Shown: piece after piece, positions 38,359-53,689 of the stretch
Position numbering within the stretch: position 1 is the stretch's first letter
Layout: the number at the start of each line of letters is the position of its first letter
Assembly: GCF_001644605.1 (NCBI RefSeq)
Contig: NZ_CP011388.1
Location: 1,597,001 to 1,661,000, forward strand
Length of the DNA: 64,000 nucleotides
Direction of reading: 5' to 3'
Source of the DNA: Paenibacillus swuensis
GTDB taxonomy: Bacteria; Bacillota; Bacilli; Paenibacillales; DY6
Made by a program: the position numbers and the translations under genes
Notes under the pieces: generated by a model
The model's input: the letters and a program-made list of their open reading frames with translations, nothing else
What the model was told of the DNA's origin: nothing
Databases searched by the model: none

Positions 38359-38613
38359 TTATATATGATGAGCCCCTTCGGCTAAACCTTGCGCGAATCC
38401 GGTATGAAATCCTTGATTATATCCCTCGTTAAACGCTCTGTGGTTTACAACGGCTCGCTTGGGAACCCGTTTGGCCGTGATCACCTTACGTTTGCGACCC
38501 TGCTTCCGAGCTAATCTTCGTCCTGTCAATTGCCGTTTCAGGACTCGTTTTCTGGTGACAACGGCACGACTTTTCCTTGCCGATTTACGGCCTATTTGAA
38601 CCCGTTTCTTCAT
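38359..38613 (-). CDS. tag-only basic protein (Lys/Arg stretch plus GYxxGF motif)
   Basis: About 84 residues. The first ~60 are mainly Lys/Arg with interspersed Val/Ala/Leu (RKSARKSR, RKQGRKRKV), and the last 24 read RAFNEGYNQGFHTGFAQGLAEG, an aromatic-glycine motif with a four-residue period. The same combination opens the CgeB, GT2 and GT-D enzymes of this island. No enzymatic domain. GGAGGTG lies 15 bases before the ATG; an ATT 9 bases upstream in frame is an alternative start. It is followed by GT4 and preceded, overlapping, by a CgeB gene. A structural or docking role is inferred. Confidence 0.65.
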   Translation of the reverse strand: MKKRVQIGRKSARKSRAVVTRKRVLKRQLTGRRLARKQGRKRKVITAKRVPKRAVVNHRAFNEGYNQGFHTGFAQGLAEGAHHI

Positions 38614-38656
38614 TTTGCGAATGATAATCACCTCCGAACTCCTGCGTCTTAAGCAT

Positions 38657-39781
38657 CTATAACGCTCCAAATATTAAAGTTAACGCTTGATGAAGTCTGT
38701 GCGCGTAAGTATGTTCACTCATGGTTCTGCGCAATCCCCTCAAAGCGATCGCGCGCCGCTCATTCTCATGGATGAGATAATGCTCAAGCTTGTGCAGCAT
38801 TTCCTCAGGTGAAGAATAAGTTGCGATTTCATGTCCCGGTACATAGAACCTCTCCAAATCGGCTCTGGCATCCGTTAATTGCAGCGTTCCGGTTGCCGAT
38901 ATTTCAAACGTTCGCGGATTCGGCGAAAGCGCACCGATCTTTCGTGTATTGTGGTTGTACGTTTCATCATCGGGATCTCTGTGAAGGTTGATCACAATTT
39001 TGGTGCCGCTGTAATGCTCCGCTGTTTCTGCGGGGCCCAGCCATTTTCCCAGATCTATTTTGGAAGCGAGGCGTTTATAGTTCTGCAATCGATCCCACCA
39101 AATTCCGGTAAAGCGAATATCTTTGGACGCCAGCGGGCCCGCAATCTGGTCGAAGAAAGCGATACGATTCCAATATCCGCTACCTATAAAGGCGATATCT
39201 CTGCGGGCATGACGCCCGACCTGCCTGGGCCGATAAACGGAGGATTGCGCGCCGAAGGGCAAATAATGAACCTGCGCGCAGCCATTCTGTTGATAGAACT
39301 CCACACAGCTGAGCTCGAGGGTAAATACATGATCATAATGCCTGGCGATCCAGATCGTAACGTCTGTATAGTACGGGTCATCGGCGAGCCATAGTGCGGT
39401 TAATATGCCTAATTCCCGAATGCGGTCAATCTGGGCTACCTGCAAGGTCATACCGTCCAATACGAACACCAGATTCGGCCGCAATTGTTGGGACAAAGCC
39501 GCGATATCCTGTGTCGGATCACCCAAATGCAGTTCCCGGACAAGCCCGCGCAACGCTTCTATGATCGCATCATCAATAGGGTTATAGGGAAAGCCCTTTC
39601 CGGAGGATACATAGAGGACGCTCATCTCCCGTATGGGTATATTCAAAGGCGCGGTTTCCCGTATGATGGATTCGCATTGACCCATGTAATAGCCGTCATT
39701 CAGACCAAATTTGTATCCGGAATGCCAGCGGCTCTTGCGATGTTCCGAAGGTTTACGCATACCGGCGCTCTTCTTACGCAT
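38657..39781 (-). CDS. CgeB-type glycosyltransferase with basic/GYxxG tag
   Basis: 374 residues. Residues 1-20 are basic, 21-38 carry the tag SGYKFGLNDGYYMGQCES, and the remainder is a CgeB-family GT-B-like domain: LVFVLDGMTLQVAQIDRIRE, ALWLADDPYYTDVT, VHYLPFGAQSSVYRPRQVG, IAFIGSGYWNRIAFFDQ and PRTFEISATGTLQLTDARAD. CgeB of Bacillus acts in the mother cell on the outermost spore layer. AGGTGAG precedes the ATG. It is paralogous to the adjacent upstream gene, sharing most motifs. Overlaps the next (small tag) gene region. Confidence 0.88.
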   Translation of the reverse strand: MRKKSAGMRKPSEHRKSRWHSGYKFGLNDGYYMGQCESIIRETAPLNIPIREMSVLYVSSGKGFPYNPIDDAIIEALRGLVRELHLGDPTQDIAALSQQLRPNLVFVLDGMTLQVAQIDRIRELGILTALWLADDPYYTDVTIWIARHYDHVFTLELSCVEFYQQNGCAQVHYLPFGAQSSVYRPRQVGRHARRDIAFIGSGYWNRIAFFDQIAGPLASKDIRFTGIWWDRLQNYKRLASKIDLGKWLGPAETAEHYSGTKIVINLHRDPDDETYNHNTRKIGALSPNPRTFEISATGTLQLTDARADLERFYVPGHEIATYSSPEEMLHKLEHYLIHENERRAIALRGLRRTMSEHTYAHRLHQALTLIFGAL

Positions 39782-39800
39782 AATCTCACCTGCCTTATCA

Positions 39801-40904
39801 TCATGAACTGTACATCATTTGCAGCATCTGATTCAGACGCTTGTGAAAGGTGTGTTCCGCATAGGTCCGTTTAAGTCCCCGCAGCGCAATGGTCCTTCGT
39901 TCATCTTCATGATTAAGATAATACTGGATTTTGTCCGTAAGCTCAGCCGCGTTACTAAATGTCACAATATCATGCCCCGGTGTATAAAATTGGCTTAAAT
40001 CCTGCCTGATATCCGTTAATTGCAGCGTGCCGCAGGCCGAAATCTCATAGGTTCGGGGGTTAATCGAGTGGGCGGGTATTTTTAACCGGTTTCGGTTATA
40101 AATTTCATCATCCGCCGCACGATGCAGATTGATGACGATTTTGGCACCGCTGTAATATTTCACGGATTCTTCCGTAGGGATCCATTCCAGCCGAATTCGT
40201 TTCTGCAGCAATTTATAATTACGCATCTTTTCCCATTGGGAACCGGCGATAACCGTATGAATCCGGGACAGATACGGTGCCATCTGATCAAAAAGCGCTG
40301 TTCGGTTTGTAAATCCGTTTCCGATGAAACATACATCTGAGCGGTATTCAGCCCCTACATGCTGCGGTCTGTAAACGGCCGGGTTTACTCCTAAAGGCAG
40401 ATAGTGAACCTGAGCGCAGCCCAGCGAGGTATAATACGGTATGCAACTAAGTTCGTGTGTAAATACGACATCATACTGGACAGCAATCGCTCCGGAGAAA
40501 TCCGTAAAGTAGGGATCATCCGCAAACCACACCGCGGTTTTAATGCCCATGGCGCGAACGGCCTGGATTTGCATCGGGTGATCGGGAGGAAACGTGTGCA
40601 AACCGTTGATGACCAGTACCAGATCGGGACGGTGCATCGCCGCAAGCCCTTGAATATCTTGTTGATTTCCCACAATCGTTTCGGTTACCAGCGTACGCAA
40701 TGCCGTAATTACCCCGTTATCAATCCCTTCAAAGCCTTGGGGGATGAGCAGCACCCGCAGATTTCGAAGAGGATACGCTTCGGGCGGCAAACTGTGAAGT
40801 ATGGCTTGACCCGCGCCGTGCATATACCCATGCGACCAACCTAGCTGAAACCCGCTGTCACGGCTGGACGTCTGGATTCTGCGGGCTTTCCTGTGAGCTG
40901 CCAT
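39801..40904 (-). CDS. CgeB-type glycosyltransferase (paralog) with basic/GYxxG tag
   Basis: 367 residues. Basic opening (MAAHRKARRIQ), tag SGFQLGWSHGYMHGAGQAIL at about residues 17-36, then the CgeB domain: LVLVINGLHTFPPDHPMQIQAVRA, TAVWFADDPYFTDF, VHYLPLGVNPAVYRPQHVG, VCFIGNGFTNRTALFDQM and RTYEISACGTLQLTDIRQD. GAGGAGGTGATG leads to the ATG. It lies 19 bp upstream of the other CgeB gene and 16 bp after a GT2-like gene, so all are co-transcribed. The two paralogs probably act on different sugars or positions. Confidence 0.88.
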   Translation of the reverse strand: MAAHRKARRIQTSSRDSGFQLGWSHGYMHGAGQAILHSLPPEAYPLRNLRVLLIPQGFEGIDNGVITALRTLVTETIVGNQQDIQGLAAMHRPDLVLVINGLHTFPPDHPMQIQAVRAMGIKTAVWFADDPYFTDFSGAIAVQYDVVFTHELSCIPYYTSLGCAQVHYLPLGVNPAVYRPQHVGAEYRSDVCFIGNGFTNRTALFDQMAPYLSRIHTVIAGSQWEKMRNYKLLQKRIRLEWIPTEESVKYYSGAKIVINLHRAADDEIYNRNRLKIPAHSINPRTYEISACGTLQLTDIRQDLSQFYTPGHDIVTFSNAAELTDKIQYYLNHEDERRTIALRGLKRTYAEHTFHKRLNQMLQMMYSS

Positions 40905-40920
40905 TTCATCACCTCCTCTT

Positions 40921-42042
40921 TCATGAGCTGCCTTTCCATTTGCGCTTGCGCATCCGGTCCTGATAGTGGAAACGTCCGTCCGTCATCGCCAAGTAGGCTT
41001 CCATCGCTTCCAAGTGATCGCCGATACGCAGTTCCATTTCTTCCGTGCCTCTGGAACGCAAGGCCCATTTCGATTGCGATAAATGAATCATGCGACACGC
41101 GCTTACTATTAAGTTGGCGCGAAGAGCTGTAAGTTGAGCTTTGGGAGGTATCATCAGCAGCTCGGCTCCTATGACCTCCAGCGCCTTTCGCGAAAGCGCG
41201 TGAGGCAGAGTCGCCATCGAATTCGCTGCGAGGTCTTCTCGCCCCATCGCATGATTCATAAATTCTTGCAGAACACTGACCCGGTCCCTCAGATGAAAGA
41301 AGGGAAGCAGCGGTGTCATATCCGCAAGCGCGATATCCACGCCTTTTCCCGCTGCGGCAAGGAGAGGAATGAAAAAGTCGGCTTGAGCGGGAACGCTCCC
41401 GTCCGTGAACAGCAGAATGTCTCCAGTCGCTTTCAGCGCGCCCAGGGTACGTCCTACATCCTGGCCCAGAGCATCCGGATAATACAGGGTGAGGATGCCA
41501 TCCGGTTCTGAGGCTGCCTCAGTCCCGGGATTCGGCGTCCCGTCCTGCACGATGATGATCTCGTGCAGGGACATCCGCCGCAGCTCCCGAAGCAGCTGCG
41601 GGTGCGCTCCCTGTCCGCCGCTTACCGTTACGACGGCGGACACGGTTTGCCCGGTGGGCAGCAAGAGCCACGGCGGCGGATCCGCAGGGCCGAACACCCC
41701 GCGCAGGTAAGCGCCCACCAGCTGCGCGTAGCGGGCGGGCGGAGCTTGGCGACGCCCCGCCGCGCCGTACCAGGACACCCATAAACGGGCAAGGCTCCGT
41801 TTATGGGTGTCCGCGGGGGCCGCAGCCAGCAACGCGCGGTGGCTGCGGCCCGCCCGGTGCGCGGCTGCGAGCAGCGCCGCGCTGAGCCGGGTGCCGCCGG
41901 AGGTTGCGCGGTCGGCGGCACCCGGTCCGCGGCCCCGCGAGCGGCCGCGGCCGGGGGAGCGCCCGCTGCGCTTCAGCGGGCGTGAGGCTCTGCCGGCGGG
42001 CTTGCGGCCGGCGGCGCGGGAAGCGGGCTTGCGCGGCTTCAT
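40921..42042 (-). CDS. GT2-like protein with GC-rich basic N-terminus and altered DXD
   Basis: 373 residues. The first ~130 are Arg/Ala/Gly/Pro-rich (PGRGRSRGRGPG), strongly basic, encoded by DNA of very high G+C. The C-terminal ~240 form a GT2-type domain paralogous to the next gene upstream: IIIVQDGTPNPG, GQDVGRTLGALKATGDILLF and TLPHALSRKALEVIG match it. The metal site that reads DGD in the paralog is DGS here, so activity may be lost or changed. A perfect 16-bp inverted repeat lies inside the coding sequence (41773-41812). GGGAGGTG precedes the ATG. Confidence 0.78.
   Translation of the reverse strand: MKPRKPASRAAGRKPAGRASRPLKRSGRSPGRGRSRGRGPGAADRATSGGTRLSAALLAAAHRAGRSHRALLAAAPADTHKRSLARLWVSWYGAAGRRQAPPARYAQLVGAYLRGVFGPADPPPWLLLPTGQTVSAVVTVSGGQGAHPQLLRELRRMSLHEIIIVQDGTPNPGTEAASEPDGILTLYYPDALGQDVGRTLGALKATGDILLFTDGSVPAQADFFIPLLAAAGKGVDIALADMTPLLPFFHLRDRVSVLQEFMNHAMGREDLAANSMATLPHALSRKALEVIGAELLMIPPKAQLTALRANLIVSACRMIHLSQSKWALRSRGTEEMELRIGDHLEAMEAYLAMTDGRFHYQDRMRKRKWKGSS
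41773..41812. repeat. perfect 16-bp inverted repeat inside a coding sequence
   Basis: GGACACCCATAAACGG and its exact reverse complement flank an eight-base loop GCAAGGCT. The stem lies within the GC-rich N-terminal part of the GT2-like gene, in frame through HKRSLARL. There is no T run after it on either strand. Confidence 0.9.
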
Positions 42043-42049
42043 GAGGCGG

Positions 42050-42850
42050 TCACCTCCCGACGGTGCGTTGCCGATTCAGGTCTGGCCGGTTGCCGCGCGG
42101 GTCCGTCATGCGAATGTACCAATGGATCGCTTCCAGGTGATCCCCCATGATCAAATGCTGCAACGGATCCACCGCAAAAGCCTTGCGCCTTCGCGGATTT
42201 TTCCGTCCCACATCAATACGGTGTACCGCGCTGACGTATAATCCGTTATGGATGGCCATGGACAGAGCAAGCGGGGGAACCGCGAGGTTCTCGCAGCCGA
42301 TCGACTCCAAGGCGCGGCGGCTTAACGCATGCGGAATGGTAGTCAGGGAAGCGCCCTTGAGATCCGGCCGGTTCAACGCTGCAGACATCGCATGCTTCGC
42401 CAGCACGACCGGATGTACGATCTTCCGTTTGGTATAGCCCAAATACTGATTTAACGCGACGTCCACACCCTGTTCAACGGCTCGCACCAGAGGAATAAGA
42501 TCCTTCGCCGGTATAACAATGTCTCCGTCGATGAACAAGAGGATATCGCCTCTGGCGGCTTGAGCTCCCACCCCGCGTCCCACATCATGCCCCAGCGGCT
42601 CGTCAAAGCTGATAACCTTCGCCCCCATACGGACGGCGAGTTCTCGAGTACCGTCTTTAGAACCGTTGGCGACGACTATAATCTCCGTTTCCGGGTGGAC
42701 TCTGGCGGCTTGGGTAATGATGCGGCTGATCGTCTTGATCTCGTTCATAACCGGAATGATTACGGATACTTTAGGAGAAAGAGAGTTGACGAACGTAAAG
42801 GAACGGCGTTGCCTGTTGGATTTGCGGACGGCTTTATGGCGATGATGCAT
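42050..42850 (-). CDS. GT2 glycosyltransferase with basic N-terminus
   Basis: 266 residues: a basic N-terminus (HHRHKAVRKSNRQRR), then a GT-A fold: KVSVIIPVMNEIKTISRII, IIVVANGSKDGTRELA, GHDVGRGVGAQAARGDILLF and the metal-binding DGD in FIDGDIVIP. The C-terminus is again basic. It is the first gene of a six-gene run (42850 to 37244), with AAAGGAGG before the ATG. The likely reaction is transfer of a sugar to a spore-surface acceptor, role otherwise unknown. Confidence 0.88.
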   Translation of the reverse strand: MHHRHKAVRKSNRQRRSFTFVNSLSPKVSVIIPVMNEIKTISRIITQAARVHPETEIIVVANGSKDGTRELAVRMGAKVISFDEPLGHDVGRGVGAQAARGDILLFIDGDIVIPAKDLIPLVRAVEQGVDVALNQYLGYTKRKIVHPVVLAKHAMSAALNRPDLKGASLTTIPHALSRRALESIGCENLAVPPLALSMAIHNGLYVSAVHRIDVGRKNPRRRKAFAVDPLQHLIMGDHLEAIHWYIRMTDPRGNRPDLNRQRTVGR

Positions 42851-43414
42851 CTCTTTTCAGCCTCCTTAAAGCTTTTTCACCCACAGTGTATGTGTATAGG
42901 GTATTTGTGTAACGGCTTTAGCACATCCACGTTTATATTGGTGCGAATGCCCGCGGTACAAGTGCGGATAAGCATTAGGGAAGGGGAAAACATCCCGTTT
43001 TTTGGGCAAAATAATCGCATCCAGCCACGAAGTGTGTATAAAGGTAACGATTTATTTTGAGAAGTTGCCCGTTTACGCTATTTCCGGATCTTTAAACACG
43101 ACCCCAACAAATAGATAAACGAACTTCCTTCGTGTGTCGTCAAAACTGCACATGAAGGAACTTCGTTTCTTCGTTTACCTATGATTACTTAAATGCACTA
43201 AATATAGAGAAATTCTGCTGCTTAAGAGTGTAAATAGTTACCTTGCCCGTTGAAGCACAAACATAACCTTCGCAACACACCGCGTGTTCGGATCGATGCG
43301 GGACAGACGTAACGATATATGGATATATGTATTTCCTCGGCGCAATGCGTTGCCCCGGTTGCCCATTAAACGTATTCCTTGTAAAATAATCCCCCTCAAA
43401 CTGAGCAAGGGGGA
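42851..43414. other. 564-bp intergenic region with one long hairpin
   Basis: No open reading frame of quality on either strand. It should contain the promoter of the 42850-37244 unit, but I could not pick a convincing -10/-35 pair; a sigma-K-type promoter would be expected. It holds an 18-bp imperfect inverted repeat (43117-43168), and the terminator of the small tag gene at its left side (minus-strand view). Confidence 0.5.
43117..43168. repeat. long imperfect hairpin in the intergenic gap
   Basis: AAACGAACTTCCTTCGTG pairs with CATGAAGGAACTTCGTTT (16 of 18 positions) around a 16-base loop. It could be a leftover terminator or an RNA structure; no gene reads into it on the plus strand, and the T-run is weak. 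Confidence 0.55.
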
Positions 43415-43417
43415 TTA
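43384..43417 (-). terminator. terminator of the small-gene operon
   Basis: TAATCCCCCT and its complement AGGGGGATTA flank a ten-base loop with T-rich sequence after it on the minus strand. The stop codon of the tag-only gene is inside the stem. Confidence 0.82.
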
Positions 43418-43687
43418 CAACGATTGATTTAAATAGGCTTCCTCATAACTTCGCTCATAAGCAACGGCATGGCCTTCCGCATACCCTCGGCGATATCCGG
43501 ACGCATAGACGTCTTGCTTACGCATTCTCTTCCCTGATTTCTTCCTTAAGCTCTTTCCAGCATTTTTCCCCGAGCTCTTCCTCGTGCTCTTCCCGGGTTT
43601 CTTCCTGCTCCTGACCTTCGGAGTTGCTGTTCCTGCGCCCGTGTTTACCTTAGCACGTATTGCTGACTTCTTACCTAATTTACTCAT
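43415..43687 (-). CDS. tag-only basic protein (second copy type)
   Basis: 90 residues. About 60 residues of Lys/Arg/Ser/Gly (GKSTRKSSGKNAGKSLRKK) are followed by VYASGYRRGYAEGHAVAYERSYEEAY, again the G-Y-x-x-G-Y-x-x-G pattern. No enzymatic domain. ATG at 43687 is chosen for AAGGAG six bases upstream; it overlaps the end of the preceding helical-protein gene by eight bases. It is the last gene of a seven-gene run starting with the RmlA-like gene, which argues for co-expression with the tagged GT2 and GT-D enzymes. Confidence 0.7.
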   Translation of the reverse strand: MSKLGKKSAIRAKVNTGAGTATPKVRSRKKPGKSTRKSSGKNAGKSLRKKSGKRMRKQDVYASGYRRGYAEGHAVAYERSYEEAYLNQSL

Positions 43688-44174
43688 CTTCAAGCTCCTT
43701 CCCCACAACAACGCCACGAATTTTCCTGCGCGGATGTTGCCCCTCACTCATGGTGGTGGTTGGAACGTCTCCCTCCAATTTCATTTTTAAATCCCGCTGT
43801 AGCGCTGGATTCCGCTTATTCTTTGAAACACTCACAGGACGGCGTTCTCCCGCTTTAATTCTCACATTCCGCCGATCCCCTTGCTTACCCTCGTTTTCCG
43901 AACCGTCCTCAGGGAAGCTTCCTCTCACATCAGCCCGCAACCACACCGCCCCTGGAAGACCGCGGCGGCGGCGCTTTATACGTATGCCGATCATCTTCAA
44001 CATGATGGAGCGCTGATAATGGCTGATCGATTGGATATTGTCGCAGAGATGACCTGCTGTCTTATGCGACCGTTCTGTGACATCGGCTACTTGCTCGATC
44101 ATACGGGCAAGCGCTTTTTGGCTTCTGGCCAAGGATCGGAGGATGTCCAGCTTGATTGCGTTCTCCGTTTCCAT
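43680..44174 (-). CDS. small helical protein, island family member 3, with basic tail
   Basis: 164 residues. The first ~60 are helical with the pattern LRSLARSQKALARMIEQVADV and a later segment DNIQSISHYQRSIMLKMIGI; residues ~65-164 are polar and rich in Arg/Lys (IRIKRRRRGLPG, NVRIKAGERRP). The helical part aligns by eye with the two genes just upstream (LAxSxxxxARxIE). No catalytic motif. Start ATG overlaps the previous stop (TGATG). Unknown function; a structural adaptor in the island is possible. Confidence 0.65.
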   Translation of the reverse strand: METENAIKLDILRSLARSQKALARMIEQVADVTERSHKTAGHLCDNIQSISHYQRSIMLKMIGIRIKRRRRGLPGAVWLRADVRGSFPEDGSENEGKQGDRRNVRIKAGERRPVSVSKNKRNPALQRDLKMKLEGDVPTTTMSEGQHPRRKIRGVVVGKELEDE

Positions 44175-44512
44175 CAGTCACTGTCCTCCAGATCAAACAA
44201 CCCTTCCGGGAAGCCGGAACCGCCGCCGCCTTCCGAATCACCGTCTTGATCCAGCACAACTTTAAGATTTTTGGTCAGCCCGTTTTCAAGCTTGGTCAAC
44301 CCTTCAATGACTTCAATCATCTGTTCATGAATGTTCATGCTTTGCTTTAATTGATCACTATGATCCGCAAAGACCTCGCCTGACAGATGATTGACAATCC
44401 AGTTCCGCGATTTCTCCGCCTCTAATGCTTTCGCTTCCAGAATGAGCGCAATATTCCATTGAAATTTGGCGGCCGCCGCTAACATCTGACGAAACGATTC
44501 CTCCCGATTCAT
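44174..44512 (-). CDS. small helical protein, island family member 2
   Basis: 112 residues, helical and acidic: FRQMLAAAAKFQWNIALILEAKALEAEKS then HSDQLKQSMNIHEQMIEVIEGL. The pattern of an N-terminal helix with IxxILEAK and a second coiled-coil-like helix repeats that of its two neighbours. The end is Gly/Asp-rich (DGDSEGGGG). ATG at 44512 has AAGGTG eight bases upstream. Unknown function. Confidence 0.65.
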   Translation of the reverse strand: MNREESFRQMLAAAAKFQWNIALILEAKALEAEKSRNWIVNHLSGEVFADHSDQLKQSMNIHEQMIEVIEGLTKLENGLTKNLKVVLDQDGDSEGGGGSGFPEGLFDLEDSD

Positions 44513-44570
44513 GACGAACACCTTCTCCCTGATCACCTGAATTCATTCAACCTATATCCGTTGATAACGA

Positions 44571-44858
44571 TTATTCTTCTTCCTTCTCCTTGACTTCCTT
44601 CATGACCACACCCATTGTTTCCGCGAGCGACTCTTGAAAGTCCGCCAAGGAATTCAGGTAAGACACGACACTTTTAGTAATGGTACCCGAGTGTTCAATA
44701 AGCTCATCTATGCCTTCCACGTTCGGATATGAATTCGGCAGCGTATCTACGATTTGTGCCATTCGCACGGCTACCATCCGCTTAGCCTCTATAATCCTTG
44801 CCATCTCATTATGGGATTTGGCCAGATGCGCTATAATTTCCGTCACTTGTTGTTGCAC
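44571..44858 (-). CDS. small helical protein, island family member 1
   Basis: 95 residues starting with GTG after GGGAGG. Helical: VTEIIAHLAKSHNEMARIIEAKRMVAVRM, a loop with NVEGIDELIEHS, then SVVSYLNSLADFQESLAETMGVVMKE and a charged end. Similar short proteins are found near spore-surface glycosyltransferase genes in Paenibacillus in my recollection, sometimes mislabelled as sugar epimerases, but no function is known. First of three tandem members (44858 to 43680). Confidence 0.7.
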   Translation of the reverse strand: MQQQVTEIIAHLAKSHNEMARIIEAKRMVAVRMAQIVDTLPNSYPNVEGIDELIEHSGTITKSVVSYLNSLADFQESLAETMGVVMKEVKEKEEE

Positions 44859-44940
44859 GACTTATGACCTCCCAAATATCCCGTTTATCCATACCATATG
44901 CCGCAAAGAACAGGGATGAGCGGTACATTCGCCCATCCCG

Positions 44941-46386
44941 CTATAAATTCGGCGCTTTTAACACCGGCGCCGCAATCAGCGGCAATCCTTCAGCGGCGTG
45001 TCGCGCGGCTTCAGGCCATGTCCCCCACTCGCGAACAGGACGATGAACAAAGTTCCAGAATCGTAACGTGTAGTCACTTGTCCATCGACGTCTTGCGCCT
45101 AGGATAATCTGGTAACATACGCCCTCCGCATCCCGCAGTAACTGCCCCTCCGCCACTTCCCCTTGCTGACCACATACAGCCGCATAGGCGGTTTCCACCT
45201 CATTCAAAGTCATGGGATTACCGGTAACACAACTCCTTAAATCCCGCAAGGACAATAGTGTGGAGGGCCCAGCCCATCGTTCACCTGCCTGGACAATAAG
45301 CGGGTGCTTCAAACCGCTCTGCAACCAATACTGTTGTCCGTTCCACCCATGAACCATATGATGTGAAGGATAGAAATCGGCAGCTTTGGCATGAAGTTCG
45401 GGGTTCCCGCGGGCAAAGGTCAACAGGGCGTCCCGGGAGGGCCATTTTTCACTGAAAAAGTCCGCATTCCGCTCGTTTACTTCCTGATAAGCAGGTCCGA
45501 AATCCCGTATGCTCCGGTTACCGTAATGATGTATGAACGTATCTCTAGCAATGACAAGCCGCATTCCCGACATGCCTACCCTGAGACAGTAGTCATCATC
45601 CTCATAGTTCCCAAATTGATATCCTTCATCTAAGTACCCGACCCGGTCCAATAAATCCCGGCGAAACAGCATGCAGAAGCCCGTCACCCTTTCGGCCGTT
45701 TCCCATCGCGATGAATCCGACTGATTGTTCTGTGCAGCATACCTCTGCATTTCATTAAGGTTACGATACTTCTTCTCCACCAACTGATCTCCGCTGATGA
45801 AATTGGTGACCGGACCGACGATCCCGATACGCGGATCGCTGTGCAGACATTGGAGCATATTGCCCAGCCAGTTGCGTGTTACGACGGTATCATTATTTAA
45901 CAGGAGAACCGTGCTCCCCCTGGCCATCATCAACCCTTGATTCACCGCACCGGCAAAACCCGCGTTATACCCCAATCGTTTATAACGGACGCGGCCTGTT
46001 TCTGCTACGGACCGAAGAAAAGCTTCTGTTCCGTCCGTTGAACCGTTATCCACTACAATAATCTCATAGGGCAGGGGGGTATATTCGCGAATACTGTTTA
46101 CACATTCTTTCAGATATCCATACTTGTTATAGGTAGGAATGATAATGCTTGTTCCTTCCCATGCAGTTTCGTAGCCCGCCTGACCGGCCGCGGTCCCTTC
46201 TGCGGCGCCGGTGCTGAAGCCCGCTTCATAGCCGTTCTGATACAGGAGAGAACCCCGTTGGTCCCTTGTTCCGGAAGAACGCTTGTTCTTATTTCTGCTT
46301 CTGCGACGTTTACCAGTGCCGCTTCCTGAAGCAGGACGCCGAGCGGTTGCCCGAATCTTCACCGCGCCTGATACTCTTGTTTTCAC
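44941..46386 (-). CDS. GT2 glycosyltransferase with basic/GYxxG tag
   Basis: 481 residues. Residues ~1-46 basic (GTGKRRRSRNKNKRS), ~48-68 the tag LYQNGYEAGFSTGAAEGTAAG, then GT-A: SIIIPTYNKYGYLKECVNSIREY, IIVVDNGSTDGTEAF, LLLNNDTVVTRNWLG (metal-site NND) and NYEDDDYCLRVGMSG, as in rhamnosyltransferase-like GT2 enzymes; a ~140-residue C-terminal extension follows. Start overlaps the upstream gene's stop by four bases (ATGA). No membrane segment. Confidence 0.88.
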   Translation of the reverse strand: MKTRVSGAVKIRATARRPASGSGTGKRRRSRNKNKRSSGTRDQRGSLLYQNGYEAGFSTGAAEGTAAGQAGYETAWEGTSIIIPTYNKYGYLKECVNSIREYTPLPYEIIVVDNGSTDGTEAFLRSVAETGRVRYKRLGYNAGFAGAVNQGLMMARGSTVLLLNNDTVVTRNWLGNMLQCLHSDPRIGIVGPVTNFISGDQLVEKKYRNLNEMQRYAAQNNQSDSSRWETAERVTGFCMLFRRDLLDRVGYLDEGYQFGNYEDDDYCLRVGMSGMRLVIARDTFIHHYGNRSIRDFGPAYQEVNERNADFFSEKWPSRDALLTFARGNPELHAKAADFYPSHHMVHGWNGQQYWLQSGLKHPLIVQAGERWAGPSTLLSLRDLRSCVTGNPMTLNEVETAYAAVCGQQGEVAEGQLLRDAEGVCYQIILGARRRWTSDYTLRFWNFVHRPVREWGTWPEAARHAAEGLPLIAAPVLKAPNL

Positions 46387-47459
46387 AGGGTACCCTCCCC
46401 GCGATCCGGTTGCTTCCCATAGGCGATGTAATCCGCCATATGTCCGAAATCCAGCGCTACTTTACCCAGTTCACGGGCAATTCTGCTGACAATAACTACC
46501 GCGGGCACGCCTGCGGATACCAAAGCGATGTCATATTGGAATCCTGCGATTTCTCCCATGACCCGGTCCATATCTCTCATTCCATTTACCGGAGAGACGG
46601 TCCCGGTAACAGCGATTCCATGGTGTTCAACGAGCTTAACCGCAAGATCAGGCGCGGCATCACCCACCAATAACACCCGGCGACCCGTCAGTAAGGGAAG
46701 AAGCAGCCCCATTTCGTACAGTTGATAATTTATCGTCGACAGCGTCAGGGGCATAGACCGAAAATCCAGGTGATGGGCACGGAATACGGGGAACATCAGC
46801 TTTTGAAAATGCGGGTGTCTGGATTGCGGAATACCGACTCTGTCGGCCTGAGACACCGCTTGAACCAACAGCTCACGAGCAGATGAATCGGGAATGGCAA
46901 CACCGGCGTAGGCGAGAAACGGACCTGCTTTTAGCACATCATGAGCCGGCATGAGTACATCCTGCGCCATCGTCAATAATTCTCCGTCTCCCAACCTTAC
47001 GATGGCGTAAGGTCTGTGTTCATCCATTGCCGCCCGAAGCTCCTCGGCAATCTGAGCCGGTTCGGCAACTTTATGCATATGGGGATAGAAAGTTTGCACT
47101 CCTGCCGTAACAATCTGTTCGATACTGATGTCCCCCAAAATATGAAACGGCGGCAAATGTTGTTCCGCAATCCGGTCACCCCCGTCATACAGCCCCTGCG
47201 CATAGGCCTTCTCCGTTGTTCGTTCTTGAACGGAAGGCAATGTCACAGCCGGAGTCAAGACTTTGCGCTGCCGTCGGCCTGACCCTTTACGACGTAACGG
47301 TTTTCGATTATTTTTTGCGCTGCGATAGAGGAATGTACGTTGTTTGCTCTTATTCCCCTTAGACGCGTATGCCCTCGCCAACCCTCCTCCCGTGACCCGA
47401 GACAAGCCACGCTTGCGTGTTGTTTTGGTGCCCGCAGCGGCATGGATGGTTTTCGTCAT
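46383..47459 (-). CDS. GT-D fold glycosyltransferase with basic/tag N-terminus
   Basis: About 358 residues. The first ~80 are basic (KGNKSKQRTFLYRSAKNN, RRKGSGRRQRK), followed by EKAYAQGLYDGGDRI, a reduced form of the tag. The rest matches the DUF1792/GT-D fold: YAIVRLGDGELLTMAQDVLM, GIPQSRHPHFQKLMFP, RVLLVGDAAPDLAVKL and DIALVSAGVPAVVIVSRIA. ATG at 47459 with GAGGAGG twelve bases upstream. Directly coupled to the GT2 gene downstream. Confidence 0.85.
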   Translation of the reverse strand: MTKTIHAAAGTKTTRKRGLSRVTGGGLARAYASKGNKSKQRTFLYRSAKNNRKPLRRKGSGRRQRKVLTPAVTLPSVQERTTEKAYAQGLYDGGDRIAEQHLPPFHILGDISIEQIVTAGVQTFYPHMHKVAEPAQIAEELRAAMDEHRPYAIVRLGDGELLTMAQDVLMPAHDVLKAGPFLAYAGVAIPDSSARELLVQAVSQADRVGIPQSRHPHFQKLMFPVFRAHHLDFRSMPLTLSTINYQLYEMGLLLPLLTGRRVLLVGDAAPDLAVKLVEHHGIAVTGTVSPVNGMRDMDRVMGEIAGFQYDIALVSAGVPAVVIVSRIARELGKVALDFGHMADYIAYGKQPDRGEGTL

Positions 47460-47508: not shown

Positions 47509-48234
47509 TTATTTCTCCTGTTCTGCGCGAATAAGCTTGGCGGCCTCATCCAAGGATTCAAACGTGCCGGCATCAGTCCACCAACCTTGCAGAATATTCC
47601 ACGCAAGTTTGCCCTCACGGGTATACACATTGTTTACATCCGTAATCTCCAATTCCCCGCGAGCCGAAGGTTCAATATCTCCGATGATGGCAAAAACTCG
47701 GCTGTCGTACATATAGATGCCCGTCACGGAATAATCTGACTTGGGCTCGGAAGGCTTTTCCTCAATAGCTGTAATATGGCCCTCGGCATTAAAGACAGGC
47801 ACACCATATCGCTTAGGATCATGTACTTTCTTTAACAACACCATGGCGCCGCTTTCCTGAGCCTTAAACTGCTCTACATAGGATCCAAGGGAGTCTTCAA
47901 ACAGGTTATCGCCCAGAATAACAACGAACTTCTCGTGTTCGTCAATGAATCCCTGAGCCAGTGATAAAGCTTCGGCGATGCCGCCTGCTTTCTCCTGAAT
48001 CCGATAAGTCAGATTGACTCCGTACGCTTCGCCTGAACCCAGAAAGTCCACATAAAGTCCGGCGCTGAACTTCCCTGTAATCAACATAATTTCGGTGATA
48101 CCCGCTTCTTTCAATTTGTCGACGGCGTAATATATCATCGGATATCGGCCTACGGGTAGCAGGTGTTTGTTGATCATATTCGTCAATGGACGAAGCCGTG
48201 TCCCGGTACCGCCCGCCAGTATAATTCCCTTCAA
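47509..48234 (-). CDS. RmlA-like sugar-phosphate nucleotidyltransferase
   Basis: 241 residues: GIILAGGTGTRLRPLTNMINKHLLPVG is the nucleotide-binding signature, with FVVILGDNLFEDSLG (Asp binding metal) and VTGIYMYDSRVF. It would activate glucose-1-phosphate or a similar sugar with TTP or UTP. Length is short compared with ~290-residue RmlA, resembling SpsI-type and short archaeal-like thymidylyltransferases. Start is TTG at 48234 (GGGAGGA seven bases upstream); in-frame ATG codons at 48255 and 48294 are less well placed. It leads the 48234-43415 operon. Confidence 0.85.
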   Translation of the reverse strand: MKGIILAGGTGTRLRPLTNMINKHLLPVGRYPMIYYAVDKLKEAGITEIMLITGKFSAGLYVDFLGSGEAYGVNLTYRIQEKAGGIAEALSLAQGFIDEHEKFVVILGDNLFEDSLGSYVEQFKAQESGAMVLLKKVHDPKRYGVPVFNAEGHITAIEEKPSEPKSDYSVTGIYMYDSRVFAIIGDIEPSARGELEITDVNNVYTREGKLAWNILQGWWTDAGTFESLDEAAKLIRAEQEK

Positions 48235-48374
48235 TTCCGATTCCTCCCGTGTCATATAATGATGATGCGCATGCCCGCGGCCGGATTTTGGCAAGCCGCT
48301 TATCCCCCCATTGTATGTACACCCGTCAGGGACCGAAACGGCTATGGTACAGTTTGGGAATAACGATCATGAAT

Positions 48375-48418: not shown

Positions 48419-51400
48419 TTATAGTCCGTCGCCCATCGCGATCCAGTTTAGCACCCCTGAAGTTTCCGGTGTGAACTTGGTGCGAACGACTTGTAATGTA
48501 GCGGTTGTGGACGTTTTGTTTATGACGCAAACCTGATAAGCCGCCGCATTGCTGTTAGCAACGAGCACATAGCTGTTATTTGTATAAGCTTCATCGAAGG
48601 TCACCATAATGTCCACACTTTCCTCATGGCCGGCAAACAGGAAACTGGCCAAACCGTATTGCTGCAATGAGGAGCGCTTGTTAACTGGTAAGCGTACTGT
48701 CGAGAACGACAGCTTATCAGCGGTCACCGCCCGGTTAGCCAGCTTACCTTCCGTTACAGCCTGGTCCGCCAGATGGGATTCCTCGATGCATTCGTTTTGC
48801 AAGTGCTCGGAACCGACAGCCGCCTCTGTAATCTGTGCGGAACCAACGGCTTCTTCCGCAATATGGCTGCTCTGGATACTTTCAAAAGCGATTTTCTCAG
48901 CCGTAACAGCTCCGAAAGCCAAGTGCTGTCCCTCCACGGCTCCTTCTTGCAAGTGCGTGTTTCCGATGATTTCTTGCGCGAGATGTCCCGCATGCACACT
49001 GCCAAAGGCAAGTTTCTCAGCCGTCACCGAGCCAGCGGATAAGTGTTGAACATGAACGGCCCGTTCCTGCAGTTGCAACGTACCCACCGCTTTATTGGCA
49101 ATATGCCCGAATTGAACACTGCCCGCCGCGATTTTATCGTTAGTCACACACCCGGATCCAAGGTGCCCGCTCTGTACAGATTCCGATTGTATTTGAACCG
49201 AACCAACCGAATTCGCTCCAAGCTCGGGAAACTCGATGGCGCCTTCCGCAAAGTGTCTTGCTTCGATGCTTCCGCTCGCAATATGATCACTTTGAATACT
49301 TTCACGGGTCAAATGACCTGCTTCAATCGTTCCAGTCTGCAGTTTGGATCCGCTGATCGCAGCTTCCCCAATATGCTCGGTTTGAACCGCCTCCGGAGTC
49401 AAGTGATAAGCGAAGACCGCTCCTTTGCGCAAGTGAAACCCCTGAATCAGCTCTGCTTGAAGATGCTTTGAGCCCAGCGCCTCCAGAGCGATCTTATCAC
49501 CGGTCACGGCTCCGTCCGCCAGCTTCTCACCGCTGACCGCGCCCGCTTGCAGCGCCGCTTCGCTCACCGCGTCCGACGCCACGTGCCGCGCCTCCACCGC
49601 GCCGTCCGCGAGGTGCGCCGCCGCTACGGCTCTGCCAGCCAGCTTCGCGCCGCTGACCGCGCCCGCTTGCAGCGCCGCTTCGCTCACCGCGTCCGCCGCC
49701 ACGTGCCGCGCCTCCACCGCGCCGTCCGCGAGGTGCGCCGCCGCTACGGCTCCGTCCGCCAGCTTCGCGCCGCTGACCGCGCCCGCTTGCAGCGCCGCCT
49801 CGCTCACCGCGTCCGCCGCCACGTGCCGCGCCTTCACCGCGCCGTCCGCGAGGTGCGCCGCCGCTACGGCTCCGTCCGCCAGCTTCGCGCCGCTGACCGC
49901 GCCCGCTTGCAGCGCCGCTTCGCTCACCGCGTCCGCCGCCACGTGCCGCGCCTTCACCGCGCCGTCCGCGAGGTGCGCCGCCGTCACGGCTCCGTCCGCC
50001 AGCTTCGCGCCGCTGACCGCGCCCGCCTGCAGCGCCGCCTCGCTCACCGCGTCCGCCGCCACGTGCCGCGCCTCCACCGCGCCGTCCGCGAGGTGCGCCG
50101 CCGCTACGGCTCCGCCCGCCAGCTTCGCGCCGCTGACCGAACCCGCTTGCAGCGCCGCCTCGCTCACCGCGTCCGCCGCCACGTGCCGCGCCTCCACCGC
50201 GCCGTCCGCGAGGTGCGCCGCCGACACGGCTCCGTCCGCCAGCTTCGCGCCGCTGACCGCGCCCGCTTGCAGCGCCGCCTCGCTCACCGCGTCCGCCGCC
50301 ACGTGCCGCGCCTCCACCGCGCCGTCCGCGAGGTGCGCCGCCGTCACGGCTCCGTCCGCCAGCTTCGCGCCGCTGACCGCGCCCGTTTGCAGCGCCGCCT
50401 CGCTCACCGCGTCCGCCGCCACGTGCCGCGCCTTCACCGCGCCGTCCGCGAGGTGCGCCGCCGTCACGGCTCCGTCCGCCAGCTTCGCGCCGCTGACCGC
50501 GCCCGCTTGCAGCGCCGCCTCGCTCACCGCGTCCGCCGACACGTGCCGCGCGGACACCGCTTCGTCGGCGATGTGCGCGGACTGCACGGCATTCGGCGCT
50601 ATCTTGACGGCGCTCACGGATCCCGCTTGCAAGGCCGCGCTGCCAATCGCTTCCTCAGCCAAATATCGAGCGGTCACCACACCGTCGGTAAGATGACGGC
50701 CTTGAATGACGGTATCCTGCAACAAAGCGCCGGTAATGCTTCCTTCCGCCAAGTGCTGCGATCTGACGGCTCCGGTTTCGATATGGAACGATTTAATCGT
50801 TCCCTGTTGGATATGGAACCCTTTGACGGCCTCCGGCTTCAAGTGACGGCTTTCCAGCGTTTCTTTTGCGATCTTATCCCCTGTCACAGCGCCTCCGGCC
50901 AAAGTTTGCTCCGTGACAGCCTCTGCCTGCAATTGCTCTGAACCTACGGCTGCCAGGGCAATATGGCGGTGTTCTATGCTCCCTTGAGCGATGATGCGCG
51001 AATTTACCGCGTCACTGGCCAGCTGCTGCTCCGTTATGGCATAATTCGCGATTTTGGCGGATGTCACAGCTTCATTGTTGAGATGGCGGGTGTCCACCGC
51101 GTAATCAACAATCTGATTGCTGCCTACGGCTCGAGGGGCCAATTTATCCGACGTGACGGCCGCATTCGCCAGTTGCTTCTCTCCCACTGTGCCCTCAGCC
51201 ATGTGTTTAGCATAGATGGATCCGCCCGCAACCGCGCGCTCCGTGACCGCCCCTTCGGCCAAATGACTCGGTAACACGCTGTCTTCGATCAGATGTCCCG
51301 AAGTGATGGTTCCGGGCTGAATATGTTTCCCTAGAACCGCATCCTGGGCAATCTTTGAAGTGCCCACCGCCCCGTCCGCTATTACCCAATTGGTCACACT

Positions 51401-53566
51401 GCCTCCGGCCAATTGCACCGAACCGATGGCGCCGGGCTGCACATGCGCGCTTTGAACGGCGGAAGCGGCGATTTTCTCCCCGTTAATCGCTCCGTTTGCC
51501 AGCGTTTCTGTCGTAATCGCGCCTGCGGACAGGTGAGCCGATGTAATCGCGCCCGCCTGTACATGGCCGCCGGTGATGGCGGAATGTCCGATCTTCTCTC
51601 CGGTAACCGAACTGTTCGCCAGCGCTTCCGCTGTTACCGCCCCGTTCGCCAGCTTTGATGCTTTCACGGCTCCGTCCGAGAGCTGCGCCTCACCGACTGC
51701 GCCAAGCTGCAGATTGGTGGAAGCTACGGCTCCTTCCGTAAGATGAAGTGAACCTACCGCACCTAAGGCGATCGATTCCGCGGTAACCGCTCCGGTCCCC
51801 AGATGTTCGGACTGAATTAACCCCTTGGTCAGCTTCTCCGTCGTCACTGAGCCGTCCGCCAGCTTAGCTGCCGTTACGGACCGTTCTGTAAGCTTGTCGG
51901 TGGATACGCATTCCTGAGCTAATTTGGAAGTTGTAATGCTATGATCCGAGACATGATGCGTCAATATGGATGAAGCGTTTAAATGAATTCCTTCAATGGC
52001 CGCAGGCGCAATTTTATCGGAAGTTACGCTTGATTCTTTTAGCAAGGCGTTCGTGATCGACTCCGGCCGGATATGCGGCGTAGCTACGATATGTTCACCC
52101 AAGTGCCGCGATTCCACCGTACTGTCCGCAAGATGCGGGCCTGCAAGAGAACCAGCTACGAGATGCTCGCCAAGTACGGAACCCGTTGCCAGCTTCTGTC
52201 CTGTCACCGCGCCGTCCGCAAGCTGAGAAGTACCGATCACTTCGTCCGCAAGCTTCAATGACGTAACCGCTCCATCGGCTAATTGCTCCGCGGTAACGGC
52301 ATAAGCTGCGATATGCGCAGTTTCAACAGCACCACGGGTCAGGTGGCGAGCTCCCACTTGCTCCGTTCCGATGTGCCGGTCCTGAACGGTGCCCTCCGCC
52401 ACATGTTCACTTTCAATCAGCCCGCCGATGAGATGATGGGGGCGAATGCTGCCGGGTGCCAGCTTATCCGCGGTCACCGCACTGTCGCGCAATTTATCTG
52501 TAAGGATGGCTCCGTCCGCGATTTTAGCGGCTTCCACCGCTTCATTCACAAGATGGACCGCTTGAATCGTTCCCGCGACAAGCTTCTCCGCGGTTACCGC
52601 GCCATTTTGGATTAACTCGGAAGTAATGATTAAATCGGATAAATGCTTGGCTTCAATGGAACCCTCCGCAATTTTCATCGCGTCGATTGTCCGGTCCGCC
52701 AACTTCTCGGAGGTTATGGAGTTTTCCTGCAACTTGTCGCCGGAGATGGAACGATCCTTAAGCTTATTCCCGGAAATTGAACCCATGGCCAGATGGTGTT
52801 CATCCACAGAGGATGAAGCCAGCTTCTGTCCTGTCACCGAACCGTCCGCCAATTTCCCGCCCGTAACGGCGTAATCAATCAGAGCGCCGGTACCCACACT
52901 GTCCGAACGAAGCTTATCGCCGCTGATGGTGTGCTCCGCTAATTTGCTGCCCGTGATCGTTCCATCCGCGACATCATCACCGTAAATAAACGGGACATTG
53001 CGCTCATCTTTCCGCTGGAGCAATACCGTCCCTTCGGAGACCGCTGCTGCCTCATCCGATTCCCTTTCATCTGTGAACTCTCCAGCTTCCTCCATGACGT
53101 AGGCTTCCACATCCGTAACTTGATCCGAATCCCTAAACAGTTCCTCAAAGGTGTCCGATGAAGATGGACCGTGTGCATCCCACACCGTTTCCATACCGGC
53201 CTCCAAATTTTCTATCCATTGCCTGACGGCACCGGAAGCCGCTGTTTCGGCATCGTCGGTGGTAGGCTCGTAGGCGAGGATGGTCTCCACTCCCAACTGC
53301 AGCCGTTCCCTTAGATCCCCATGCAACATGGATTGCTGCAACAGCTGTGCCAGCAGGTCGGGACGTATTTCGTCCAGACTCTGCGCAACTTCATTCTTCG
53401 GTCCCTCCGCAACAGAAATAGAGCGGATGCCCACTTCATTTTTGGGTGACCGCTCGATCTTCTTCACTTTAGCTTTATTCTGCATGACTTCATCAATCAT
53501 TTTTAGTTCATCTACTACAAAAGGCTGTTTAACCTTTTTCGATTTATTAGGACGCTTTTTATTCAT
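48419..53566 (-). CDS. giant decapeptide-repeat protein with lectin-like tail
   Basis: About 1,715 residues. A basic start (MNKKRPNKSKK) and an acidic linker (~1-190) lead into roughly 140 tandem decapeptides of the pattern [AS]-[VI]-x-x-x-[KH]-[LI]-x-x-G, predicted as a beta-helix or fibre, including a block of near-identical 40-residue repeats. The last ~90 residues are a beta domain (VDIMVTFDEAYTNNSYVLVA, ending LNWIAMGDGL) resembling the H-type lectin and tail domains called WIAG tails. No signal peptide or membrane helix. AAGGAG lies seven bases before ATG at 53566. A spore-surface fibre is the most likely role. Confidence 0.8.
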   Translation of the reverse strand: MNKKRPNKSKKVKQPFVVDELKMIDEVMQNKAKVKKIERSPKNEVGIRSISVAEGPKNEVAQSLDEIRPDLLAQLLQQSMLHGDLRERLQLGVETILAYEPTTDDAETAASGAVRQWIENLEAGMETVWDAHGPSSSDTFEELFRDSDQVTDVEAYVMEEAGEFTDERESDEAAAVSEGTVLLQRKDERNVPFIYGDDVADGTITGSKLAEHTISGDKLRSDSVGTGALIDYAVTGGKLADGSVTGQKLASSSVDEHHLAMGSISGNKLKDRSISGDKLQENSITSEKLADRTIDAMKIAEGSIEAKHLSDLIITSELIQNGAVTAEKLVAGTIQAVHLVNEAVEAAKIADGAILTDKLRDSAVTADKLAPGSIRPHHLIGGLIESEHVAEGTVQDRHIGTEQVGARHLTRGAVETAHIAAYAVTAEQLADGAVTSLKLADEVIGTSQLADGAVTGQKLATGSVLGEHLVAGSLAGPHLADSTVESRHLGEHIVATPHIRPESITNALLKESSVTSDKIAPAAIEGIHLNASSILTHHVSDHSITTSKLAQECVSTDKLTERSVTAAKLADGSVTTEKLTKGLIQSEHLGTGAVTAESIALGAVGSLHLTEGAVASTNLQLGAVGEAQLSDGAVKASKLANGAVTAEALANSSVTGEKIGHSAITGGHVQAGAITSAHLSAGAITTETLANGAINGEKIAASAVQSAHVQPGAIGSVQLAGGSVTNWVIADGAVGTSKIAQDAVLGKHIQPGTITSGHLIEDSVLPSHLAEGAVTERAVAGGSIYAKHMAEGTVGEKQLANAAVTSDKLAPRAVGSNQIVDYAVDTRHLNNEAVTSAKIANYAITEQQLASDAVNSRIIAQGSIEHRHIALAAVGSEQLQAEAVTEQTLAGGAVTGDKIAKETLESRHLKPEAVKGFHIQQGTIKSFHIETGAVRSQHLAEGSITGALLQDTVIQGRHLTDGVVTARYLAEEAIGSAALQAGSVSAVKIAPNAVQSAHIADEAVSARHVSADAVSEAALQAGAVSGAKLADGAVTAAHLADGAVKARHVAADAVSEAALQTGAVSGAKLADGAVTAAHLADGAVEARHVAADAVSEAALQAGAVSGAKLADGAVSAAHLADGAVEARHVAADAVSEAALQAGSVSGAKLAGGAVAAAHLADGAVEARHVAADAVSEAALQAGAVSGAKLADGAVTAAHLADGAVKARHVAADAVSEAALQAGAVSGAKLADGAVAAAHLADGAVKARHVAADAVSEAALQAGAVSGAKLADGAVAAAHLADGAVEARHVAADAVSEAALQAGAVSGAKLAGRAVAAAHLADGAVEARHVASDAVSEAALQAGAVSGEKLADGAVTGDKIALEALGSKHLQAELIQGFHLRKGAVFAYHLTPEAVQTEHIGEAAISGSKLQTGTIEAGHLTRESIQSDHIASGSIEARHFAEGAIEFPELGANSVGSVQIQSESVQSGHLGSGCVTNDKIAAGSVQFGHIANKAVGTLQLQERAVHVQHLSAGSVTAEKLAFGSVHAGHLAQEIIGNTHLQEGAVEGQHLAFGAVTAEKIAFESIQSSHIAEEAVGSAQITEAAVGSEHLQNECIEESHLADQAVTEGKLANRAVTADKLSFSTVRLPVNKRSSLQQYGLASFLFAGHEESVDIMVTFDEAYTNNSYVLVANSNAAAYQVCVINKTSTTATLQVVRTKFTPETSGVLNWIAMGDGL
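49502..50560. repeat. tandem 120-bp repeats inside the giant repeat gene
   Basis: About nine copies of a 120-bp unit, nearly identical, G+C-rich, encoding 40 residues (four decapeptides, e.g. ADAVSEAALQAGAVSG). Units differ by single bases such as AAG/GAG or Thr/Ala codons. The DNA outside this block encodes similar decapeptides but is not repeated at nucleotide level. Confidence 0.93.
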
Positions 53567-53689
53567 GTTGAAACTCCTTCCCAGACTCCTTGTTGGTATC
53601 AACATATGCAGGAATCCGGGCAAGAGTCACGAGAAACAGGTTATACACCCAAAAAATAGGCTGCCGACTCATTTCTCCGCAAGCACAAC

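Follow-up and report, generated by a model that had tools for sequence, protein, structure and literature searches.

A conserved GX3-repeat tag on glycosyltransferases and small basic proteins in a probable spore glycosylation cluster of Paenibacillus swuensis

Why should glycosyltransferases of unlike folds and small proteins devoid of any known domain carry the same short glycine-aromatic motif within a few kilobases of one bacterial chromosome? The question arises from a 64,000-nt stretch of the Paenibacillus swuensis genome (NZ_CP011388.1, positions 1,597,001 to 1,661,000; hereafter the window), in which an earlier note had described a GYxxGYxxG motif in six proteins, always next to a Lys/Arg-rich stretch. 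We verified all six segments, which lie in frame on the minus strand (38359-47459; Table 1): the motif reads GYNQGFHTGFAQGLAEG in P1, GYKFGLNDGYYMG in P2, GFQLGWSHGYMHG in P3, GYRRGYAEG in P6, GYEAGFSTGAAEG in P7 and AYAQGLYDGG in P8. When the 64-kb window is translated in all six frames, eight of the nine matches to G[FYW]xxG[FYWLHM]xxG fall inside these six proteins. A loose DNA version of the motif occurs at 70 sites across the 5.01-Mb genome, against 45 for a backward control, and four sites lie within the 9.1-kb segment (Poisson P ~1e-5). With a backward control this high, the bare regular expression is weak evidence, and it is a sequence profile that does the discriminating.

The full tag profile, built from 38 peptides of which six come from the window itself, is significant in the whole genome for exactly P1, P2, P3, P6, P7 and P8. 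The six E-values are 2e-6, 2.7e-5 (P1), 3.4e-5, 7.5e-4, 0.0019 and 0.012 (P8), and the best match outside the six, a 23-aa frame, reaches 0.57. A held-out profile of 32 peptides, drawn from other genomes only and free of window peptides, gives six genomic matches at E<=10, five of which are P1 (0.005), P2 (0.075), P3 (0.25), P6 (0.37) and P7 (2.7); the sole outsider is one 23-aa frame. P8 is not recovered in this search and is therefore the weakest of the six, while clear tags, such as GYQVGYYDGG, are present in its homologues. The motif thus stands in all six proteins for which it was originally described, and the notion that random proteins of the genome carry it equally often is excluded by both profiles as well as by the related loci analyzed below. 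The motif is a real, specific and conserved feature.

Table 1. Tagged proteins, neighbouring genes and promoter-like elements of the cluster (window coordinates)
Feature	Coordinates	Strand	Remarks
P1, tag-only, ~84 aa from ATG at 38613	38359..38613	-	ORF open to 38670
P2, CgeB-type glycosyltransferase, N-terminal tag SGYKFGLNDGYYMGQC	38657..39781	-	Glyco_trans_1_2 + DUF3880
P3, second CgeB-type glycosyltransferase, N-terminal tag SGFQLGWSHGYMHG	39801..40904	-	Glyco_trans_1_2 + DUF3880
P4, GT2-like, basic N-terminus, without tag	40921..42042	-	GT2 match below cut-off
P5, GT2 glycosyltransferase, without tag	42050..42850	-	heads unit P5-P4-P3-P2-P1
SigE/SigK-like element GCCGTTAC-N-CATACACT	42885..42916	-	upstream of P5
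P6, tag-only, ~90 aa	43415..43687	-	K/R-rich region, then tag YASGYRRGYAEGHAVAYERSYEEAY
Three small conserved ORFs, without tag or Pfam family	44571-44858, 44174-44536, 43680-44174	-	unit of P6
SigE/SigK-like -10 CATATGGT	44893..44900	-	upstream of 44858
P7, GT2 (GT-A fold) glycosyltransferase, basic N-terminus + tag YQNGYEAGFSTGAAEG	44941..46386	-	tag glycines conserved
P8, GT-D fold glycosyltransferase, long basic N-terminus, weak tag KAYAQGLYDGG	46383..47459	-	PF22882 / NF040628
Nucleotidyltransferase, RfbA-like, sugar-nucleotide synthesis	47509..48294	-	PF00483; heads unit rfbA-P8-P7
SigE/SigK-like element GCCGTTTC-N-CATACAAT	48310..48342	-	upstream of rfbA-P8-P7

Carriers of the tag

P2 and P3 are 48% identical and qualify as CgeB-type enzymes by their domain pair and GT-B fold, which in this type is close to that of GT4 enzymes such as BshA. 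CgeB is classed as a glycosyltransferase, in Pfam as well. P8 scores above the cut-off as a GT-D enzyme (PF22882, 265 bits; NF040628, 237 bits), and its gene overlaps the start of P7 by four bases. A search of PDB sequences returned no match for P2 and no meaningful one for P8. Past its GT2 domain, at residues ~340-480, P7 apparently contains two divergent units of the form YWLxxGxRxP / YQxxxGxRR, possibly sugar-binding. No known domain is recognized in the two small proteins, P1 and P6: each consists of a Lys/Arg-rich region followed by the tag, which is C-terminal in P1 (AFNEGYNQGFHTGFAQGLAEG), and this bears out the earlier description of two proteins made of basic stretch and motif alone.

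The tag and the basic stretch in related loci

We compared 80 related loci, nearly all from Paenibacillus and one from Cohnella, and sampled further relatives at the level of order and class. The strict motif is present in 175 ORFs of the 80 loci, while shuffling leaves 7 on average. At E<0.1, the held-out profile detects the tag in 72 of the 73 P2-type and 69 of the 73 P3-type CgeB proteins, in 22/27 full-length P7-type GT2 enzymes, in 12/19 GT-D enzymes and in ~31 tag-only proteins; no further family in these loci carries it at this threshold. Because the profile peptides were drawn from these very loci, the informative part of the result is the absence of the tag elsewhere together with its near-universality within the families. 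A six-frame scan of the related loci gives 225 tag domain matches, all of them on the strand of CgeB.

Within the alignment of 67 CgeB sequences, G26, G30 and G34 are invariant. The relative entropy of the tag, 2.35 bits, comes close to that of the enzyme body (2.58), while the linker has 1.30 and the basic N-terminus 0.82. Of the 67 sequences, 47 have a cysteine at the position of residue 36 in P2, two residues past the final glycine of the tag. The pattern could in principle be a compositional coincidence, low-complexity G/Y/K/R sequence accumulating in fast-evolving N-termini with no common function, and the shortness of the single motifs and the weakness of P8 would fit such an origin. The excess of motif ORFs over shuffled sequences, the restriction to a few families and the invariance of the CgeB tag glycines despite drifting flanks make this highly improbable.

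Among 121 genomes of the order, a tag match is present in 94 and a close CgeB in 91; the two coincide in 84 genomes and are both missing from 20 (Fisher P 4e-10, the species not being independent). CgeB occurs with no tag detected in seven genomes, and the tag with no close CgeB in ten. One genus of the order (g8: G007, G016, G021, G025) has close CgeB homologues in which the tag is undetectable. Outside Paenibacillales, the CgeB-type relatives examined lack the tag, and those that are readable begin directly at the enzyme body, which marks the tag as an add-on. The tag is accordingly a lineage-specific module and not a part of the enzyme fold. Matches of the profile beyond the order are mainly to FliH, which accounts for four of the five checked; the fifth is an Rpn-type transposase. 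This transposase-like protein (L173) carries GYEKGFKEGFEKGFEEGK.

Exactly one tag-only gene is present in 59 of the 69 full related loci, and none is detected within 10 kb in the other ten (six-frame scan), so that the window with its two is unusual among its relatives. Under a loose definition, the tag-only proteins have 5-9 consecutive tetrads, mostly 6-8 and most often 7-8, whereas the enzymes mostly have 2-5; the tag-only tetrads begin with a small residue, nearly always followed by Y, F or H. The presence of one such gene per locus, usually with the longest run of tetrads, leads us to favour a scaffold over a competitor as the role of the tag-only protein.

The basic stretch behaves differently from the tag. 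In the window itself the Lys/Arg-rich neighbourhood described earlier holds with caveats: the stretch is short and modest in P2 and P3, and in P8 it ends ~17-20 residues before the motif. Defined as at least 8 K/R in the 20 residues preceding the tag, it is found in 100% of the tag-only proteins, 92% of GT-D and 45% of GT2 enzymes, but in 17-21% of CgeB relatives, against a background of 11% for untagged ORFs, taken over their first 120 residues. The word 'always' therefore fails for the CgeB relatives, and the co-conservation of motif and basic stretch proposed in the earlier note is half borne out, being strong in tag-only, GT-D and GT2 proteins and close to background in CgeB. A linker rich in Pro, Ala and acidic residues separates the two elements in GT-D and in many tag-only proteins. 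Basic stretch and tag should best be treated as separate modules.

Transcription units and neighbouring genes

The cluster is organized in three units of the same direction: rfbA-P8-P7, the three small ORFs with P6, and P5-P4-P3-P2-P1. A CATAnnnT-type box precedes each of them, the box upstream of the three small ORFs (43680-44858) being among the strongest. CATAnnnT is the -10 type of the SigE/SigK mother-cell promoters. The box also lies upstream of homologues in the related loci: in 29/33 cases for the 44571 family, 41/71 for P3, 24/37 for P5 and 17/21 for the 35522 family, compared with 181/1150 for other genes and 149/1150 for a reversed control, counts in which related species are not independent. 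A conserved -10 of this type upstream of the units is what is expected of a SigE/SigK regulon, and on this sequence evidence we infer sporulation-type (mother-cell) expression of the cluster. Scans for sigma-70 promoters and terminators gave no excess over shuffled sequences.

Of the three genomic copies of a longer element, GCCGTT-N14-21-CATACAMT, one lies upstream of P5, another upstream of rfbA and the third near an AraC-type regulator. With CATAAA accepted beside CATACA, relatives have 15 such elements, 12 of them ahead of P5 homologues. The fixed half, GCCGTT, could be a site for a regulator or a variant form of the -35. Two more blocks are conserved upstream of single families: GTCCATGA...CATAT, with 43 of its 48 occurrences upstream of P3-type cgeB (L034-L113), and AGTAAC...CATATG, which occurs 21 times and in 17 cases lies ahead of 44571 homologues.

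Promoter boxes of sporulation type would also suit another function of the tag, in which it forms, with the basic stretch, a targeting signal. The reader of this signal would be some other coat or exosporium protein that has no tag itself, and the tag-only proteins would be structural coat components, or the glycosylated acceptor, brought there by the signal and not adaptors. The extremely basic, coat-like composition of the tag-only proteins agrees with this, and the sharing of the tag would be accounted for without any contact between tags. Yet no candidate receptor shows a conservation that specifically follows the tag, and the basic part is unconserved in most CgeB members, so that we consider a targeting signal unlikely.

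The genes around the tagged ones suggest what the enzymes may produce. Homologues of the three small ORFs (44571-44858, 44174-44536 and 43680-44174) occur in 33, 22 and 18 related loci, and more glycosyltransferases lie further off in the window. Neighbouring genes in relatives include UDP-GlcNAc 2-epimerase, Polysacc_synt_2, RmlD-like and epimerase families. The Bacillus subtilis crust loci sps, cgeAB-CDE, yfn and ytd are mother-cell genes for spore-surface glycans and include cgeB and sugar-nucleotide enzymes (PMC7439481). Together with CgeB, the sugar-enzyme neighbours point to a spore-surface glycan of comparable kind, although gene set and order differ from those of B. subtilis.

The window also contains a WIAG-tail protein of 1734 aa (48419-53623, minus strand), composed mostly of tandem repeats of the type GAVTxxKLADGSVTxxHL with an NF012201 domain at the end; an ORF antisense to its repeats (49547-50941, plus strand) is probably an artefact. 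The protein is a possible surface protein or glycan acceptor. As an acceptor it was set aside: a homologue is found in just 13 of the 80 loci, and the protein is therefore unnecessary for the tag.

A putative docking helix

In the AlphaFold2 model of P2, residues 13-42 form one helix, with blocks between residues 21 and 40 at pLDDT 92-97. The tag region of P7 is predicted as two helices, 41-58 and 61-72, mostly at pLDDT <50, on a confident enzyme. These predictions and the three invariant glycines of CgeB give a predicted helix with a small residue at every fourth position, and they lend support to the small helical GxxxG surface suggested at first, at low confidence in the case of P7. The net charge of the tag in relatives is -2.7 in tag-only proteins and +1.0 to +1.5 in CgeB and GT2, while GT-D tags are acidic too; this contrast would favour hetero-pairing, but it is phylogenetically non-independent and is not relied on here.

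Long, contiguous, helical GxxxG repeats of the FliH type are very rare in nature, and no helix in the PDB had more than three contiguous ones at the time of that study (PMC2674601). FliH, the only other notable family matched in the class, likewise contains GxxxG repeats and is dimeric (PMC4523923). Our tag profile matches FliH of other Bacilli, whose repeat is of the FliH/YscL type; the homology is limited to the repeat and the flagellar context is absent here. Membership in FliH is rejected by the NCBIfam models, with 17.3 bits for P1 against a cut-off of 192 and 15.8 for P6 against 180. The FliH case nonetheless raises the alternative of a self-association helix, by which each enzyme dimerises or oligomerises on its own, the same helix being reused in the tag-only proteins as small spore-coat proteins with an independent role. 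The confident placement of the tag helix in the CgeB model agrees with this; it also speaks against docking, since in CgeB the tag may pack on its own enzyme. Independent homodimerisation does not predict, however, that the helix should be confined genome-wide to one cluster while occurring in five kinds of protein with different folds, nor that there should be one tag-only gene per locus. On this ground we assign self-association a low probability.

A second family with tandem GX3 tetrads offers a further parallel. Yae1 and Lto1, of eukaryotic cytosolic Fe-S assembly (Yae1_N, PF09811), are soluble and act as small client-recruiting adaptors, and mutating glycines of the Lto1 deca-GX3 motif weakens the Lto1-Yae1 complex (PMC4523923). 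This pair is the precedent for the proposed glycine-dependent pairing of tags. The proteins, the pathway and the kingdom are unrelated, and in Paenibacillales the motif resides on enzymes and an aromatic residue follows each glycine. Assignment to Yae1_N was rejected, with 16 bits for P1 against a cut-off of 27.5 and no match for the others, as was a deca-GX3 motif of ten contiguous repeats, a number that the tag-only proteins do not reach.

The explanation towards which we lean, if only slightly, is that a modular GX3 docking helix joins late-sporulation glycosyltransferases to each other, to a basic adaptor, or to both, at the forming spore. The G-aromatic-x-x tetrads would form a soluble GX3-repeat helix, which four different glycosyltransferases have acquired N-terminally and one or two small basic proteins C-terminally. 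Such helices would pair through their glycine faces, those of the tag-only protein with the tags of the enzymes and perhaps those of the enzymes with one another. The pairing would gather CgeB-type, GT2 and GT-D enzymes at one place with the tag-only protein as hub, whose Lys/Arg-rich tail may hold them against the anionic surface of the forming spore, where they would build a spore-surface glycan. The tag's uniqueness in the genome, its conservation and modularity, its predicted helicity, the single tag-only gene of most loci, the gene neighbourhood and the promoter boxes speak for this reading; against it stand the ten full loci with no tag-only gene detected, the genomes in which tag and CgeB do not coincide and the poor conservation of the basic stretch in CgeB relatives. 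A more general form, which is possible but falls short of probable, is a spore docking system of Paenibacillales in which each cluster has a single small basic adaptor that brings GT-A, GT-B and GT-D enzymes by the same helix into a glycan-building complex.

In dockerin-cohesin systems and with encapsulation peptides, a short module on unrelated enzymes gathers them on a scaffold. The tag has no sequence relation to these modules, and the candidate scaffold here bears the same helix in place of a distinct receptor domain. Our literature search found no description of this tag or of such a use, though subscription journals lay outside its reach and the absence is weak evidence. What we describe is a variant of a known helix-helix interaction type, one that probably serves several proteins of a spore glycosylation cluster as their common tag.

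The positioning of mother-cell glycosyltransferases on the forming spore, like their choice of targets, is for the most part an unanswered question even in Bacillus subtilis, and a tag common to three glycosyltransferase folds and to minimal proteins provides a direct handle on enzyme localisation. A functional context also emerges for small basic proteins that lack other annotation throughout the order. If the docking reading is true, the cluster would exemplify a soluble, heterotypic use of the very rare long GX3 repeats and supply a compact tag for co-localising enzymes; the wider Paenibacillales system, if true, would be a helix-only counterpart of dockerin-scaffold assembly.
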